A stretch of DNA of 64,000 nucleotides, taken from positions 1 to 64,000 of the forward strand of contig JASANC010001907.1 in NCBI GenBank assembly GCA_030248135.1, read 5' to 3'. The notes below the pieces were generated by a model, which was not told where the DNA came from, did no database searches, and was given only the letters and a program-made list of their open reading frames with translations. The translations under genes were made by a program, and so were the position numbers. Positions 27,017 to 60,438 of this stretch are shown here, one piece after another (the stretch's first letter is position 1; each line of letters starts with the position of its first letter). This stretch comes from Theristus sp. LFF4_11 (Eukaryota; Nematoda; Chromadorea; Monhysterida; Xyalidae).

Positions 27017-27329
27017 CATAGTTGTTCTAGGGGGGGGGGGGCGGCCCTAAAGATGTCAAGAAAAAAAATTTTTTCTATTTTTTTTTTTTTTTAAAGATTT
27101 TTTAATTTTTTTTATGAAAGTTGTTCAGAATTTTTCAGGGAGTCCGAATATCACCATCTGAGGAGCCACCGACTTACCATATGACCCCCACTCATGTGGG
27201 AGGAGGGTGAAAATTTCAGACTTGGTTTCGGCGACCCCATTTTCCCACCGACAACATCACGTCTCGTGTTTTGCCTCTCAATTCACCTTTTCATTTTGAA
27301 TTGAATTGAATTTCAATTTCACCAATTCA

Positions 27330-27351
27330 AGTTTTTACCCATAAACTTGAG
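27330..27351 (+). other. Spliced-leader-like 22-mer in the LINE leader
   Basis: This 22-nt stretch contains TTTTTACCCA and ends AAACTTGAG. Nematode SL1/SL2-type leaders are also 22 nt, have TTACCCA or TAACCCA near the middle and end in TTTGAG or TCAAG. It lies 43 nt upstream of the ATG and about 41 bp inside the LINE. The resemblance is by eye and may be chance. Confidence 0.35.
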
Positions 27352-27394
27352 ACATCCAATCTCGCTCTTCTCACAATTCTCGTATAATCCAACA

Positions 27395-30300
27395 ATGTGG
27401 CCGTTCAATGGGCAGTTCACGTCGCCGCACTACACACCGGCGTACCCATTCGCGTACCCTGCTGTGATGCCGCAACCTCAGCAGCAGCAACAGGCGGTTC
27501 CACAACAGCCGCAGATCATCTACGTGCAGTCACCACCTCAACCACCACCTCAACCACCGCAACCGATCCAGCAATCACAGCAGCCAGCCACACAGGGCTA
27601 CAACGGCGGAGGCCGCGGCCGATTCCAGGGAAATTTTTATCGACGCAACAGCAACTTCCGGGGCGGCAACAGTCGCGGCGGCACCGGCGGCGGCGTTCAT
27701 TCGCGGGGCGGCGCCCAACCTCGCGGCATCTGGTCGCTTCGTCGTACGTCGTACGGCGGTGTTCATAAACGAGGTGGCAGCGCTCATCGTGGTCCACAGG
27801 CGCACCGTGGTGGCAGCAACAACACCGCAGCTGGCACTCAGCCGTCAGGTCGGTTATTTGGAGGTGGTATTCAGAAGGTTCCTTTTTCGGAAAAAGCCCT
27901 GCTTACGGGCGAAGGTGTCACAATTCTAGTACCATTTGCCAAAGAGATTGAGTGTCCGGTCCCTGACTGTGATAGGCGCTATTGCATCATGCCAAACTAT
28001 GAGCACAAGATCAGCATTGACACACATCTGATCCGTGAACACAATTTTGACCCACAAAATGCCAAGTACAAACTCCGCTGTCGCTTTTGCTCTTTCGCTC
28101 CAAACACCAGATGTAGGATCAAGAGTCTCATCTCGCATTCACATTCACACGTTTTCGAACTTGAAACGCTTCCAAGCGACAATCACATGCGGTATCAGTG
28201 TCCCTCCTGCTCCATTTACTTTCCAACATCGATCGCTCTCACAAGCCATCTCCGACAATCAAAATGTAAGAGGCAACACCCAACAGAGGCCTCCGTGGCC
28301 ACAAGTGACAACCAGGCTGCCTCCGCGGCAACCACAAACTGTACAAGTGACACCAAGGCTGCCTCCGTGGCAGCCACTAACAGACCAAACGGCAACAAGG
28401 TCGCCTCCGTGGCAACCACAAACCGTCCAAGTGTCACCAAGGCCGCCTCCGTGGCAGCCACTAACAGACTAAATGACAGCAAGGTCGCCTCCGTGGCAAC
28501 CACAAACCGTCAAAATGACATCAAGGTTGCCTCCGTGGCAACCAAAAACCGTCCAAGTGACACCAAGGCTGCCTCCGTGGCAACCAAAAACCGTCCAAGT
28601 AACACCAAGGATGCCTCTGTGGCGCCTACAAACACATCAAGTGGCACAACGGCTGTCCCTGTGGCAAACTTCGAATCTGCAAAAGACACACGGGCAACCC
28701 TTTCTGAGGAGGCTCCGAGTCTCGAAGGTGCGCTGCATAACAACAACAGCCACCCGCCTGACCACATCCCGACTTCGCCTGATGCAAATCGGTTCCGAAG
28801 CCGGCTAGAAACTGTGCCAGAACTGTCAGACCACAAAATCTCGACCTCAACAAAATCCCACTGTAAACTGCAACCACAAAAAACAACAGGCGCACAGCTA
28901 AAACGCTACAGCTCTGCCCAAACCATTCCTCTAGGTGTGGTCACGCGCTCCCGCGCGAGATCCAGCAGTACATCCAACACAAACGACCAAACACGACAAA
29001 CCAACAGCACTGCAGCACCATCATTCTCTGCACACCAGACATCAATAGCTAGCAGCAAATGCCAAGCTCCCAACACCTCAAGTTGTCCAACGCAGTGGTG
29101 CAACCGGCACCCAAAACAATGGTCAGACACCGAACTAAACCGGGCCCTCCGGTCAGCAATCCACAACAGTCGAGACAGCATAGCGGTTGATGCACTAGTT
29201 TGGCAAACAGGCAATCAGGAGCCCTCCTGCAATTTCCAAGAGTGGCGCAGTATTCCAATCTGGCCGGAAGAACGAAACGCCTGGTCAACAGCTTACATTC
29301 CAGTCTTCTACAACAGCCACTGGGCGCTTGCAGTTCTCTCGGTTGCTTCGAACGTTCTACACTACTACGATAGTAGCGCACGTACAATGCCACCTAAAAG
29401 CGTTCTCAAAGATCTGCTTGCCATTTGCTCCAATCTGACTAAATCCAACAAAAAGCCGAGGGTCGTTGAATGCCCTGAGAACTATTTCAAACAAACTGAT
29501 GCTGTCAACTGCGGTCCGGCCGCAGCTCTGACTGCTTCAAGAGCTGTCATGCAGGAGCAACTCGTATTCGGTGTTGATGCGGTAGTCAATCACCGCCGAC
29601 TGCTTGAAGCGGAGTTCGCAACTGACGGACTCGCTAGACTAGAAGAAATGGCCTTCCAATCAGCCATCAAGACCATCGAAGCCTCCCAGAACAAAGTTAA
29701 ACAGCCAAAATCTAAAAGTCACAACAACAGCCACGTCAAACCAACCGTTAGCACAACAAAAACTGACCGTACCGGCCCTGTGCCGACTAAACACTCAGAC
29801 TGGCTAAACAAACTTGAACAATGGAGTGAAAACGCTGATTGGAGCTCTTTTGAGAACATCTGTCACGAACTAACAGAATCGCTAGCCTCTAAAACCAACC
29901 AAACAGGTCAGCCAAAAGCCCCACTGCGACATGCAAATGACAAATCTACCCAGACGGTTCGGCCGAACTTCAAACCGGCTGATCCAACAAAAGCAAAACA
30001 ATCTGCAAAAAGCTATCTGCAAAAACTGTACAACCGAAACAAAAAGAAGGCATTCAAGAAAGTGTTAGGCAACAGCGCTGTTCAATGCACACTTGACCCG
30101 GACGCGGTGGCATCCTACTTCAAGAAAGAAATGGGCCCACGCGCTATTGACTACCACGCTCTAGACAACTGTGCCACAATAACCAAGTCACTGTCAGACG
30201 AAGAGAAGAACCGCATCGCCGCCGAAATCACTCCGGCGGAGGTCGGACGCGTTCTTCGTCGCATGCCGAACAGCGCGCCGGGAGCTGACGGAGTGTCCTA

Positions 30301-33232
30301 CGCGGACCTCAAGAAGCTACCGGGATGCGAAGTGATCTTAGCCCGCATCTATCAGATCTGCCAAGCCAACAAAAAAGTTCCATCAGCCTGGAAAACAGCT
30401 AACACCATCCTGATCCATAAAAAAGGCGACCAGGGCGACGTGCGCAATTTCCGGCCTATTGCTATCATGAGCACCATTTATAAACTGTACACGGCCATCC
30501 TTGCCAATCGAGTCGGTCGTCTTTCGGTCGAAAAGAAGCTCTCTGACAGCAGCAACCTGCTTCTGAGTCACGAACAGAGTGGTTTCGAGGCCTTCGAGGG
30601 CACTATTGAGAACGTCTTCCTCTTGGACAACATCATCACCCATGCCAGAAACGACGTGAACGAACTACACGTCGCCTGGCTGGACTTACGAAACGCATTT
30701 GGCTCAGTGCCCCACCCGCTGATCTTCTACATGCTTGATAAACTAGGCTTCCCGTCGGAGTTTCTTGAAATCGTGGCAGACATCTACAACGAGGCCTCAA
30801 CAACGTTCCAGTGCGGCGACTGCATCACTGAAGCGGTGCCAATTGAATCGGGCGTCAAACAGGGAGATCCACTAAGCCCTCTGCTGTTCAACATCTCTCT
30901 TGAATTTCTGATCCGGACGATCAAATCAAATTTCCCGACAGCGGGCTACACACTCGGACCCTCAACGCACAACGTGTTAGCATACGCCGATGATTTAGCT
31001 GTCATAACCACGAATCCAGGTGACCTAGAACAGCTCCTTGCACTAGTTTCCTCAGTCGCCTCTGACATGGGTCTCGCATTCAATGCAGCGAAATGCGGCA
31101 CCCTATCGGCACTCGGCTCCAGAGCTCTCAACTGTCAATTCGAGATTCAAGGTGGGAAAATACCAGCACTAGACCAAGGGGAAGCGTACACTTATCTCGG
31201 TACCTACCTTGGCATAGCAAACGACCAAACACCAAACGAAATGTTCACGGACATCATCTCAGACCTTGACAAAATTAGTAAGTGCGACCTAGCCCCATGG
31301 CAGAAGCTGGACGCAATCCGAGTTTTCCTGCAGCCTAGACTCAGCTACACTGCCAGAACTTCTGACATCTCAGTTACCGCTCTCAATCACCTGGACAAAG
31401 TCCTAAAGGACGTCTGCAGAGAGGTAACCAATCTCCCATTCAATTCAACCCCCCACTACATTTTCTCTGACCATCGTAACGGCGGTCTCGGAATGCTCTC
31501 ATTCGCGGACGCCTACGCAATCCAAACTGTGGCACATGTGTTCCGCCTTCTCAGCTCCAAGAACAGTCGCACTAGGTCCACGGCATGGTTCCTTCTGCGC
31601 CACGAAGTTGCACGGTGGATCCGCGGCGACCCGACTGATGAACAAATCGGCGAATTCTGCAATGCCAAAACAGACGGGGCATTTCACAGAGCGCTGGCCG
31701 CCAGCGGCGGAGGCGCAAAAAACGTGTTCAAGCGCTTCCGAAAAGCTGTCCGAACGTTGCAAAAGCTATTTCACATTGAATTCCAAGTCAACGGCGACAA
31801 CCTCTCAGTTACACTGGACCACCCACGGTTCGGCTATGTAACGGCCACCGACAATCAGCGCAAATGCGTCTACCGCTGGCTGCGTGAATGCGTGACCAAC
31901 TACCACTTCACGGCTCTGCAGAAGCTGCCAAGCCAAGGGAAAATTGCGCGCGGGGCAGTCAACCAAATAGAAAACAATCGGTTCACCGCTGACGGCAAGT
32001 TCATCAGCTTTGCCGGCTACAAATTCATCCACAGCGCTAGGCTAAACCTCCTGTCCACAAAATGTAACACTCTGACACGTGGACCTGACGCTAAGAACAG
32101 AGACAGTGCCTGTCGCCGCTGCGGCGACAAGTACGAAACACTTCAGCACATATTAAACCACTGTAAATATCAGCTAGGTGCAGCCGTCACTGCAAGACAT
32201 GACGACATCCAGAATCGCGTTGTCTCAGCAATCAAACTCAACAACCCCACATTCGAAGTCTCAGTAAACAAGCAATGCAAAATAGCCAATCGCAGTCTCC
32301 GCCCTGACATCGTAGTGAAAAACCCCGCTACTGATGAGGTCTGGATCCTTGACGTTACCTGCCCATTTGAGTACAAAGCACACAATGAATCCAACTGGCA
32401 CACGGTGGCACGGCAACACAAGATCACAAAATACCTCATAGAGGCCAACGCGTTTGAACGTAGGGGCTACAAGGTCTATCTTGATGCAATAGTGGTAGGT
32501 AGCTTGGGCACATGGGACCCCCTGAACAATGATGCTCTCCGCACCCTAAATATCCCCCAAAAACAGATCTCAAAACTGATCCGGTTTATTGTCATGGACA
32601 CAATTGAGCACTCAAAGTCCATCTATTGGAGACACGTCCTGGGGGACAAATACCTAAACTTCATTCCAGGCTCGGCCCAGACCCGTCTGGGGCGACTGAC
32701 TCCGCCAATTGCTGTCCTGGGCGACAGTAACGCGTCTCGCGTTCACCGCATCGTCGATATCGACAAGACCAAAGTGTCGGTCCACGATCGCAGAGGCGCG
32801 CTGTCAACGACGCTGCTGGCTGCTGTGAAGGACATGAACGGTCCGATTGCAAGCAGCGCAGTCGTCATCGTGGGCGGCATCAACGACGTCAACCGTGGAA
32901 AATCGCAAGGAAAGGAAGAAGAGATCGCCGAATATCTCGTTGCTGCAGCGCGACAGGCTCGAGACATCAGTCCTGGCGTGAAGGCCTTCATCGTCAGCCT
33001 CCGCTCTCGGGAGCCCGGTGACTCTGCGGCACTCATCAACCAAGCGATGACTTCGCTCATGGATGAGTGGGAGTCCGAGAACATCGAAATCATCAAAGTC
33101 AACTACAACGCGAACGGGGCACTTGAGACCGATGACGTGCATTTGACGCCCCTCGCAATGAGCGACGTGCTTCTCCAAGTCGCTGACAAAGTCAAAGTAG
33201 ACATTCGAGCGCCGAACATTCCCGACAAATGA
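27395..33232 (+). CDS. LINE polyprotein: zinc fingers, Ulp1-like protease, RT, CCHC, RLE, SGNH hydrolase (1945 aa)
   Basis: The start is the ATG at 27395; an upstream in-frame TTG is not used. Domains in order: a Pro/Gln-rich then RGG-rich N-terminus (about 1-160); three C2H2-type fingers (about 185-290); nine 14-residue repeats (about 304-425); a Ulp1/C48 cysteine protease with catalytic-type H642, D659 and C706 (HWAL, YYDS, KQTD..NCGP); a reverse transcriptase with LDLRNAFGSVPH, KQGDPLSPLLFN and YADD (Y1197); a CCHC motif from C1573; and a restriction-like endonuclease with RPD (D1638) and D1653. The C-terminus is an SGNH hydrolase-like domain with GDSN (S1778), GGIND, and DDVH (H1916). The expected role is target-primed reverse transcription of its own RNA, with the endonuclease nicking the target. 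Roles for the protease and hydrolase are unknown. All key residues I checked are present and there is no frameshift. Confidence 0.93.
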   Translation: MWPFNGQFTSPHYTPAYPFAYPAVMPQPQQQQQAVPQQPQIIYVQSPPQPPPQPPQPIQQSQQPATQGYNGGGRGRFQGNFYRRNSNFRGGNSRGGTGGGVHSRGGAQPRGIWSLRRTSYGGVHKRGGSAHRGPQAHRGGSNNTAAGTQPSGRLFGGGIQKVPFSEKALLTGEGVTILVPFAKEIECPVPDCDRRYCIMPNYEHKISIDTHLIREHNFDPQNAKYKLRCRFCSFAPNTRCRIKSLISHSHSHVFELETLPSDNHMRYQCPSCSIYFPTSIALTSHLRQSKCKRQHPTEASVATSDNQAASAATTNCTSDTKAASVAATNRPNGNKVASVATTNRPSVTKAASVAATNRLNDSKVASVATTNRQNDIKVASVATKNRPSDTKAASVATKNRPSNTKDASVAPTNTSSGTTAVPVANFESAKDTRATLSEEAPSLEGALHNNNSHPPDHIPTSPDANRFRSRLETVPELSDHKISTSTKSHCKLQPQKTTGAQLKRYSSAQTIPLGVVTRSRARSSSTSNTNDQTRQTNSTAAPSFSAHQTSIASSKCQAPNTSSCPTQWCNRHPKQWSDTELNRALRSAIHNSRDSIAVDALVWQTGNQEPSCNFQEWRSIPIWPEERNAWSTAYIPVFYNSHWALAVLSVASNVLHYYDSSARTMPPKSVLKDLLAICSNLTKSNKKPRVVECPENYFKQTDAVNCGPAAALTASRAVMQEQLVFGVDAVVNHRRLLEAEFATDGLARLEEMAFQSAIKTIEASQNKVKQPKSKSHNNSHVKPTVSTTKTDRTGPVPTKHSDWLNKLEQWSENADWSSFENICHELTESLASKTNQTGQPKAPLRHANDKSTQTVRPNFKPADPTKAKQSAKSYLQKLYNRNKKKAFKKVLGNSAVQCTLDPDAVASYFKKEMGPRAIDYHALDNCATITKSLSDEEKNRIAAEITPAEVGRVLRRMPNSAPGADGVSYADLKKLPGCEVILARIYQICQANKKVPSAWKTANTILIHKKGDQGDVRNFRPIAIMSTIYKLYTAILANRVGRLSVEKKLSDSSNLLLSHEQSGFEAFEGTIENVFLLDNIITHARNDVNELHVAWLDLRNAFGSVPHPLIFYMLDKLGFPSEFLEIVADIYNEASTTFQCGDCITEAVPIESGVKQGDPLSPLLFNISLEFLIRTIKSNFPTAGYTLGPSTHNVLAYADDLAVITTNPGDLEQLLALVSSVASDMGLAFNAAKCGTLSALGSRALNCQFEIQGGKIPALDQGEAYTYLGTYLGIANDQTPNEMFTDIISDLDKISKCDLAPWQKLDAIRVFLQPRLSYTARTSDISVTALNHLDKVLKDVCREVTNLPFNSTPHYIFSDHRNGGLGMLSFADAYAIQTVAHVFRLLSSKNSRTRSTAWFLLRHEVARWIRGDPTDEQIGEFCNAKTDGAFHRALAASGGGAKNVFKRFRKAVRTLQKLFHIEFQVNGDNLSVTLDHPRFGYVTATDNQRKCVYRWLRECVTNYHFTALQKLPSQGKIARGAVNQIENNRFTADGKFISFAGYKFIHSARLNLLSTKCNTLTRGPDAKNRDSACRRCGDKYETLQHILNHCKYQLGAAVTARHDDIQNRVVSAIKLNNPTFEVSVNKQCKIANRSLRPDIVVKNPATDEVWILDVTCPFEYKAHNESNWHTVARQHKITKYLIEANAFERRGYKVYLDAIVVGSLGTWDPLNNDALRTLNIPQKQISKLIRFIVMDTIEHSKSIYWRHVLGDKYLNFIPGSAQTRLGRLTPPIAVLGDSNASRVHRIVDIDKTKVSVHDRRGALSTTLLAAVKDMNGPIASSAVVIVGGINDVNRGKSQGKEEEIAEYLVAAARQARDISPGVKAFIVSLRSREPGDSAALINQAMTSLMDEWESENIEIIKVNYNANGALETDDVHLTPLAMSDVLLQVADKVKVDIRAPNIPDK
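28304..28675 (+). repeat. 42-bp in-frame minisatellite inside the LINE ORF
   Basis: About nine units of 42 bp encode 14-residue repeats with consensus (S/N)-D-T-K-x-A-S-V-A-T-T-N-R-P. They separate the zinc fingers from the protease domain and would form a flexible Ser/Thr/Lys-rich linker. Confidence 0.92.
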
Positions 33233-34349
33233 CTTTTCTTGTCGTCTGACGCATGTGTGTGATTTACATTGTGTTGGTTTGCATTACATTTTGCAGTTGA
33301 ATATTTATCTGTGCATTATCGGTGACCCATTCCAGTGATTTGATTGACTTATTGAGTTCGTGTCATATTCCTTTTGCATTTTTCTTGCTCGACCGTTGTT
33401 TTATCCAAATGGTTTGATTGAGTTAGTTCACATTCATTCTTTCTCTTGATTGTGGTGTGATATACTTTTTGAATTCGGGTGGTTTTCTGATGATATTACG
33501 GATTCCTGCAGTATCTTTACTGTCCAATGCTACGTTCGGCCGGTTCAAACGACTGTTTTTTTTGTATTTGTATCGCCATGCTTTACTTGTATTTTCACGT
33601 TTGATTGATTTGAAATTCACTTTTTGAACTTGTTTAGCTTTCTTGATATAATTTGCGTTTCAATGGCAAAAATTCTTGCGTTCCGTTCATCATAATCGAT
33701 ATCGGTTCATCTCAAGAAATAACGCTCAATTGGTCTTCCCAAAACAACCACTAAACCCTTTTAAAACAGCGTCTCCAAACTCCCTCTAAGCATCTCAACG
33801 GCAACGGGCGTCTGCTACAGCTCACGACATCCGCGACGGCTCCGCATCATACAGAACACAGCAGCTGATCAACGATTGTCCTCTGGGCCTCAGGACCCCT
33901 TGCACATTGCCTCACCTCTCACCCATAGATGCCACTGAACCGGTCAGTTTTCTTTTCGTAACACTTCAGCTTTGGTCACCACCAAAAACTTCGAAAACTA
34001 CGGGGCGACAATCGCCCAAAATCTTCGTAACTCTTTGTTCTTTGCTTTCGGTGCCTCTTGTCTCTGCAGCCAAGAAAACAACCAATGGCGCATGCACTGG
34101 GGACGACAACCACATGTACACAGAGGTCTATCCGGCGCTGCGACCACAGATTGGCTGATATGAAGAAAGAAAAATGCACCGATAAACCAAGAAGATTGAA
34201 GGCTGTATTCCTGATCATTATGCAAACCGAAAACAACCTTCATTGTATCTTCTTTTCGCATTTTGTGTGCGTGATAACCATAGCCTTATTTGTTATGGCT
34301 TTATATTGCATCCATCAACCATTTTCAATGCTGATCTGAATAAACGCAA
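33233..34349 (+). other. LINE 3' untranslated region
   Basis: This runs from the stop codon to the junction with family A. No long ORF continues the polyprotein. An AATAAA motif sits about 10 bp before the end, and there is no long poly(A) tail. It is presumably the RNA segment recognised by the reverse transcriptase. Confidence 0.7.
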
Positions 34350-34649
34350 AAATAACACGGAAACAAGTTCAACAACAAACCGGTGTGATCATGCTGACGA
34401 CACGAGGCGAAACAGCAACGAGCAACCAACGAAGTTACGCTTGCAGTGGCAGACAGTGCAATTTCGACCTTTCGAGATCCTGAAAAACGATGCGTAAATA
34501 AATGTGAGTTCTCTGCTTCTATCTCACCTTAGCGACATCGGAATTTGTTGAACTAGCCTTTGCGACGCTCAAGTACTTCAATGCGCGAGTCGATCATCAC
34601 TCACCAAGGCTGAAAACAGTCGATAAATCAATCCAGAATACCACCTGCA

Positions 34650-59478: not shown

Positions 59479-60438
59479 CGACGGTGTGGGGTACTGATTT
59501 GCGCAGCCCTTAAAACCGGTGTGCAGCCCGCAAGAACAAGCTTTGCTAGCTTTGCTTCATTACACCGGCTGCCTTGCAAACTGCAAAAAGGGCCAAATTC
59601 ATTCAGAATGCTTTTTTGTACTGTTTTGTATGGTTTCACACCAAAAGTTTTCTGATCTTAGGCGCATATTTATTGAAAAATTGTGAAATGGACTTGAAAA
59701 AGTGAAGAAAAACTTTGAAAGCTACACCGCAAAATACAGTTTTTTATGAACAATTTTGTACGATTTCTGCATTTTGACTGAACATTCAAGGATGCAATTT
59801 GCTTTCACGTTGCTTGCAAATGGTGCACAGCCCTCAAAGTGGTGCACAGCCCTCAAAGTGGTGCACAGCCCTCAAAGTGGTGCACAGCCCTCAAAGTGGT
59901 GCACAGCCCTCAAATTCACACCCTCAAACTGGTGCACAGCCCTCAAAGTGGTGCACAGCCCTCAAAGTGGTGCACAGCCCTCAAAGTGGTGCACAGCCCT
60001 CAAAGTGGTGCACAGCCCTCAAAGTGGTGCACAGCCCTCAAAGTGGTGCACAGCCCTCAAAGTGGTGCACAGCCCTCAAAGTGGTGCACAGCCCTCAAAG
60101 TGGTGCACAGCCCTCAAAGTGGTGCACAGCCCTCAAAGTGGTGCACAGCCCTCAAAGTGGTGCACAGCCCTCAAAGTGGTGCACAGCCCTCAAAGTGGTG
60201 CACAGCCCTCAAAGTGGTGCACAGCCCTCAAAGTGGTGCACAGCCCTCAAAGTGGTGCACAGCCCTCAAAGTGGTGCACAGCCCTCAAAGTGGTGCACAG
60301 CCCTCAAAGTGGTGCACAGCCCTCAAAGTGGTGCACAGCCCTCAAACCCGTGTCGAAACAGTGCCGCCGCATAAATTTCTTGCGGCCTGCACGCACACCG
60401 GTTTTGAGGGCTGCGCACATCGGTACCCCACACCGTGA
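59479..60438. mobile_element. TIR element containing a 19-bp satellite array
   Basis: Inverted ends share ACGGTGTGGGGTAC, GCGCAGCCCT and AAAACCGGTGTG. The interior is dominated by the array at 59819-60345. No transposase or clear target duplication is seen. Confidence 0.6.
59819..60345. repeat. 19-bp tandem array (unit GTGGTGCACAGCCCTCAAA)
   Basis: About 27 nearly identical 19-bp units run head to tail with one interruption near 59911-59930. Because 19 is not a multiple of 3, all three frames stay open and create long spurious ORFs. The unit shares GCAGCCCTCAAA with the terminal repeats of the surrounding element. Confidence 0.95.

Follow-up and report, generated by a model that had tools for sequence, protein, structure and literature searches.

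The reading frame at positions 27395 to 33232 of the window, the 64,000-nt stretch of Theristus sp. LFF4_11 contig JASANC010001907.1 analyzed here, raises the question of whether a LINE can carry an SGNH hydrolase as a genuine part of its reverse transcriptase polyprotein or whether a piece of a host gene has become attached to its end. The frame is a single intact ORF of 1,945 amino acids with 0 internal stops on the plus strand, as are all features of the element described below. It contains, in this order, a Ulp1/C48-like protease, a reverse transcriptase (RT), a CCHC motif with a restriction-like endonuclease (RLE), and an SGNH tail. A sequence-only reading had described a LINE whose single ORF places a Ulp1-like protease, marked by H642/D659/C706, before the RT and an SGNH domain, marked by GDSN...GGIND...DDVH, after the RLE; all of these residues are found at their places, and the architecture is corroborated by domain matches and by tails in related elements. 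The element is called here a NeSL-like LINE of unusual architecture. The single long ORF, the Ulp1/C48 protease domain (above the Pfam cut-off, with the H/D/Q/C residues present), and the RLE with CCHC and RPDx14D, read from the sequence, are features of the NeSL clade; by score, the nearest RT is that of R2, above that of L1, and the term NeSL-like refers to this architecture.

Outside these domains, the ORF shows an N-terminal zinc-finger-like region with Cys/His pairs (27953 to 28270), which gives a weak Pfam C2H2 match for one finger (E value of 0.05 to 0.09), and a linker containing a 42-nt tandem repeat of 8.7 copies (28302 to 28667). The ORF is preceded by a 5' untranslated region (UTR) common to the other full-length copies (27352 to 27394) and followed by a 3' UTR (33233 to 34352) ending in GAATAAACGCAAAAA. 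Searches of the whole ORF against NCBIfam return two bacterial RT models only, the Rfam and tRNA scans of the window are empty, and no relatives of the element were found among the phages, viral contigs, and genome contigs searched.

The genome searched comprises 159 Mb in 3,744 contigs and contains four copies with the full-length ORF, that of the window (C1229) and three others (C2153, C3155, and C1163), which show 99.1 to 99.6% DNA identity with the window over ∼7.0 kb. These three are ∼7.5 kb long, with ∼485 nt of extra 5' UTR compared to the window copy. One further, 5'-truncated copy lies on C2594. The element of this group, named family A, is a young LINE. The last 210 residues, which include the tail, are identical in all five copies, and the four full-length copies show 0 substitutions in SGNH codons 1761 to 1945; selection on the tail is therefore unmeasurable within family A. 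A-like fragments (C2001, C304, and short 3' pieces) do not cover the tail and were left out of the tail count. A second group, the sister family B, is represented by an open frame of 1,873 amino acids on C1468, which shows 62% amino acid identity with the window ORF across 1,838 aligned columns. In family B, the stretch matching the 42-nt repeat is likewise repetitive and can be aligned in many registers.

The RT (30413 to 31201) matches the Pfam family RVT_1 with an E value of 1.2e-30. Its nearest solved relatives among PDB sequences are those of the R2 protein (PDB 9nl2, 9nl3, 9dou, and 8gh6), with an E value of 2.4e-51, compared to 2.6e-33 for LINE-1. The CCHC zinc-binding motif C1573-x2-C-x8-H-x4-C1590 (32111 to 32164) lies in a region that matches the Pfam zf-RVT profile weakly (E value of 0.0012), below its cut-off. 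The core of the RLE, consisting of RPD...D and the stretch behind it (residues 1636 to 1708; 32300 to 32518), is read from sequence motifs and has no endonuclease match in Pfam. A 209-amino-acid query spanning this core shows 81% identity between families A and B. The dN/dS ratios between the two families are 0.11 for the RT and 0.10 for the RLE, compared to 0.25 for the protease.

The protease region comprises residues ∼561 to 780 (29075 to 29734), with H642, D659, Q700, and C706. The profile search bears out the proposed C48 relationship for the shorter segment: residues 608 to 742 scanned alone match Peptidase_C48 with an E value of 2.3e-4 and 21.5 bits, above the cut-off of 20.7, and a 220-residue cut of the region reaches 20.1 bits, just under it. 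The corresponding region of family B likewise scores 20.1 bits, and this family keeps the catalytic protease residues of family A. Peptidase_C48 is absent from the scan of the whole 1,945-residue protein at an E value of ≤1, and a search of the region against PDB sequences yields nothing significant, the best match being a thiol protease with an E value of 0.48.

The C-terminal SGNH hydrolase domain (residues ∼1770 to 1941; 32702 to 33217) shows the blocks I (GDS), II (G), III (GxND), and V (DxxH), all present and in order in family A. Block I reads GDSN at residue 1776 and contains Ser1778 (32720 to 32731), block III reads GGIND at residue 1827 and contains Asn1830 (32873 to 32887), and block V reads DDVH at residue 1913, with Asp1913 and His1916 (33131 to 33142). 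The SGNH/GDSL relationship expected by the sequence-only reading is reflected in part at the profile level: Lipase_GDSL_2 is the best Pfam match of the last 210 residues (E value of 1.3e-4), but its 22.9 bits remain below the curated cut-off of 32.9. The SGNH reading is placed above this weak match for three reasons. Tail pieces of a third, diverged and decayed lineage, lineage C, also match Lipase_GDSL_2, with E values of 3.4e-5 and 3.3e-3, likewise below the cut-off. When a profile of the three tails is compared by hhalign with one built from two other SGNH ORFs of this genome, 162 columns align with the four blocks in register, at a probability of 92.6 and an E value of 4.4e-7 that applies to this single comparison of small alignments. 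Of 200,000 shuffled versions of the tail, 2 contain the motifs in this order, at spacings picked after the motifs were seen.

Other searches with the tail return little. The family A tail has no match in PHROGs, where two lineage C pieces reach E values of only 0.18 to 0.42, and none in NCBIfam. No significant PDB sequence is retrieved with the tail alone, for which an unrelated chain scores best at an E value of 0.89, or with the tail profile, for which two lysophospholipase L1/sialate O-acetylesterase sequences are the best matches at 0.12 to 0.14. Two single-sequence structure models are both poor, with pLDDT values of 43.6 for the tail and 35.3. In a Foldseek search against the PDB, the model of the tail has 0 matches at an E value of ≤0.001; herpesvirus terminase chains take the top ranks, with E values of 0.016 and up, and acetyl-xylan/carbohydrate esterases appear at ranks 12, 20, 21, and 22. 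Given the poor quality of this model, the structure neither supports nor contradicts the SGNH reading.

The ORF of family B ends with ...GDKYLNFTRR, immediately before the position of the SGNH tail, and its 3' UTR is recognizably the same as that of family A, with ∼73% identity over 620 columns (33786 to 34353 of the window) and ∼80% in the last 165 nt. The DNA of family B at the stop codon matches the last codons of the tail (33181 to 33216) at 28 of 36 nt. The best of 300 mononucleotide shuffles reaches 24 of 36 and the best of 300 window stretches 22 of 36, with window stretches drawn from ∼27.2 to 34.5 kb scored 0. The remnant is out of frame in family B, and the stop codon falls inside the matching segment. 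From the last aligned base of the RLE to the start of the remnant, 517 nt (32664 to 33180) are present in the window, compared to 5 nt in family B. The same junction is found on C2897, and the ORF of a 5'-truncated family B copy on C2061, 96.8% identical to C1468, ends in the same way. The sequences on C1433 and C2897 each correspond to one of two adjoining halves of C1468, with 99.6 to 99.7% identity, and may be a single element split between contigs. Because a remnant of the tail stands at the stop codon and 517 nt are reduced to 5, family B has probably lost the SGNH domain by a deletion of ∼0.5 kb, as judged from the alignment. Since several family B copies share the loss, the domain is most likely an accessory one, and the loss argues against an indispensable role.

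Lineage C consists of decayed and rearranged pieces on C1330 and C3685, with 65 to 67% amino acid identity in the RT. On C1330, an SGNH tail follows the end of the RLE at the position homologous to that in family A, after a change of frame. This first tail keeps DSN, an altered block I, and GVND, and loses the frame before block V. An inverted piece of the block V end lies nearby, with 44% identity over 41 amino acids, and C3685 contains another such piece. Block I is missing from a second copy on C1330, which has an internal deletion but retains GVND and D..H. Lineage C gives no Ulp1 match at an E value of ≤0.001. In the RLE region, families A and B are 81% identical, and the two lineage C pieces show 65% and 61% identity with family A and 71% and 58% with family B; judged from these identities, lineage C appears to branch outside A and B. 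The tails of family A and lineage C are only 27 to 32% identical, against 61 to 67% in the RT and RLE, and the SGNH tail thus seems to be fast-evolving. The presence of tails in A and C and of a remnant in B indicates that the SGNH domain was probably ancestral to the three lineages, all taken from one genome, and was lost in B.

The tail is not a chance fusion, because five copies of family A carry it unchanged, lineage C contains decayed pieces of it, and family B keeps a remnant. A recent private event, with an SGNH gene or gene fragment of the host taken up by family A and the original state preserved in family B, would account for a family B ORF that stops just short of the tail. This explanation is already contradicted by the remnant of the last tail codons at the right place in B and by the tail of lineage C, and capture of a host gene by family A was rejected on these grounds. 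When the tail is searched against this one genome in six frames, with the best candidates examined and with the limit that a distant host gene could escape, 10 matches at an E value of ≤0.001 are listed, all of them in copies or relatives of the LINE and none outside the LINE group. Private capture is thus extremely improbable. The sequence-only reading had itself named, as speaking against it, relatives whose ORF ends before a tail that is a host gene fragment: such an ORF exists in family B, but the host origin is not borne out by the remnant, the lineage C pieces, or the genome search.

Several known systems resemble the element in part. The LINEs of the NeSL clade, to which NeSL-1 of nematodes belongs, have a single ORF, a Ulp1-like protease upstream of the RT, a CCHC motif and an RLE behind it, and a host with a spliced leader (SL). 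The present element differs by the SGNH domain behind the RLE. CR1/L2-type LINEs also encode an SGNH-type esterase, but theirs is contained in ORF1 of apurinic endonuclease (APE)-type elements, whereas the element described here is of the RLE type and has the domain at the C terminus of its RT polyprotein. R2, the nearest solved relative by RT, is not known to have a protease or an SGNH domain, whereas both are present here and no single target site is apparent. The giant Athena/Terminon elements of rotifers combine a retroelement with a GDSL/SGNH gene, but they are Penelope-like and their hydrolase is a separate ORF. We know of no described element with an esterase fused behind the RLE. In the present element, the esterase-like domain is found on the RT protein itself.

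The 5' end of the window copy differs from those of the other three full-length copies. These have a 5' UTR with the sequence ...TGCTATTACAG|ACATCC and the acceptor TTACAG|ACATCC. In the window copy, it reads ...GTTTTTACCCATAAACTTGAG|ACATCC, and the part up to the bar is the spliced leader of the host, matching 21 of 22 nt of GGTTTTTACCCATAAACTTGAG (27330 to 27351) and joined at the 3' splice site of the LINE. The last 18 nt of the SL occur in the genome as 49 exact and 10 one-mismatch matches, the window included, compared to 0 for the reversed control. Eight of these 59 places were fetched, and four of them are SL RNA genes, which begin with GG and contain a GT donor as well as a AGTTTTTGG/A stretch further downstream. 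Trans-splicing of a 22-nt leader with GG at its start is in keeping with a nematode host. At the other four, the SL is joined to other sequence without an SL RNA gene, two of them sharing one downstream sequence; these are possibly retrocopies of trans-spliced mRNAs. By trans-splicing, the LINE mRNA would lose a short ORF and an in-frame AUG that lie upstream, and the AUG at 27395 would become the first. The window copy is thus probably a copy of a trans-spliced mRNA, as read from this junction. LINEs are known to undergo template jumps at their 5' ends, and a jump onto the SL RNA during insertion, instead of trans-splicing, might have supplied the SL; the 41 nt of filler found outside the SL (27289 to 27329) are in line with this. 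Such a jump is very unlikely here, since the junction falls exactly at the end of the SL exon and at the acceptor TTACAG|ACATCC that the other three copies show.

The filler contains a short near-copy of the flanking CAATTCA (local repeat 27279/27323) and was not found elsewhere in the genome, a 76-nt search hitting only the window locus. Matches to empty-site paralogs stop at 27288, showing that the window copy is inserted in a repeat with an empty form elsewhere. Neither a fixed target site nor a clear target-site duplication was seen by eye in the flanks of the element copies. Contrary to NeSL-1, which inserts into SL exons, the 3' flanks differ among the five family A copies compared and the other 3' ends read, and no SL gene insertion was seen; none of the 3' flanks read by eye resembles an SL gene.

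The reading favored here, held with moderate confidence, is that of a NeSL-like LINE with an ancestral tail, which moves by target-primed reverse transcription from an SL trans-spliced mRNA and carries a Ulp1-like protease and an active SGNH esterase as an accessory. The element would use its own RT and RLE for target-primed reverse transcription, and trans-splicing of the template mRNA would make the AUG of the polyprotein the first one. The Ulp1-like protease may either cut the polyprotein or strip SUMO or ubiquitin from proteins around the ribonucleoprotein (RNP). The SGNH tail would be a compact serine esterase with catalytic activity toward an acyl- or acetyl-ester of the host. As an accessory, it might serve RNP trafficking or membrane contact, roles that have been suggested for the esterase in ORF1 of CR1/L2-type LINEs. 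A place outside the insertion chemistry would explain how family B could lose the tail yet spread. The proposition that an RLE LINE lineage fused an active esterase long ago, keeps it as a dispensable accessory, and spreads via SL trans-spliced mRNA, with daughters carrying the SL, is tentative and stands at a little under an even chance.

The tail might instead be a catalytically idle binding module for RNA or protein, as is the SGNH-like OSK domain of Oskar. The low Pfam score and the apparently fast evolution of the tail are in line with this, as are weak Pfam OSK matches of two other SGNH ORFs of the genome (E values of 2.2e-4 and 0.065), but the family A tail itself has no OSK match in Pfam at an E value of ≤1. 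An idle module also fits poorly with the Ser, Gly, Asn, and Asp/His blocks, all present in family A, and with the lineage C pieces that keep GVND together with DSN or D..H, and it appears somewhat unlikely. Another explanation takes the SGNH domain as required for full activity and family B as living on the proteins of family A since the loss. The related 3' ends of two families in one genome would permit this, but family B has an open frame of 1,873 codons of its own and intact protease letters, as expected for a self-reliant family, which makes dependence on family A quite unlikely. An active esterase as an accessory remains the favored reading, and its role is directly testable on a matched pair in one genome, family A with and family B without the SGNH domain, both with near-identical copies. 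The SL junction would in turn mark which LINE copies derive from trans-spliced mRNA.

Some further observations concern the neighborhood of the copies and other elements of the genome. The family A copy on C2594 lies directly upstream of a histone H2B-like sequence; at its opposite end, this copy is flanked by a second H2B-like end and by a stem-loop stretch of the histone type. The family B fragment on C2061 interrupts an apparent histone H2A gene. These gene names were read by eye from translations. A 310-amino-acid SGNH ORF occurs with equal score at three places, on C1655 (423 to 1355), C87, and C3510, and C2974 contains a Lys/Ser-rich ORF with SGNH and weak OSK matches; all of these may be ORFs of other mobile elements. 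Another element family with open frames of 1,089 amino acids and ∼31% RT identity to the present element is found on C1746, C2783, C1507, C3088, C734, and others. In the window itself, positions 59817 to 60346 contain a 19-nt tandem repeat of ∼28 copies with 97% matches.
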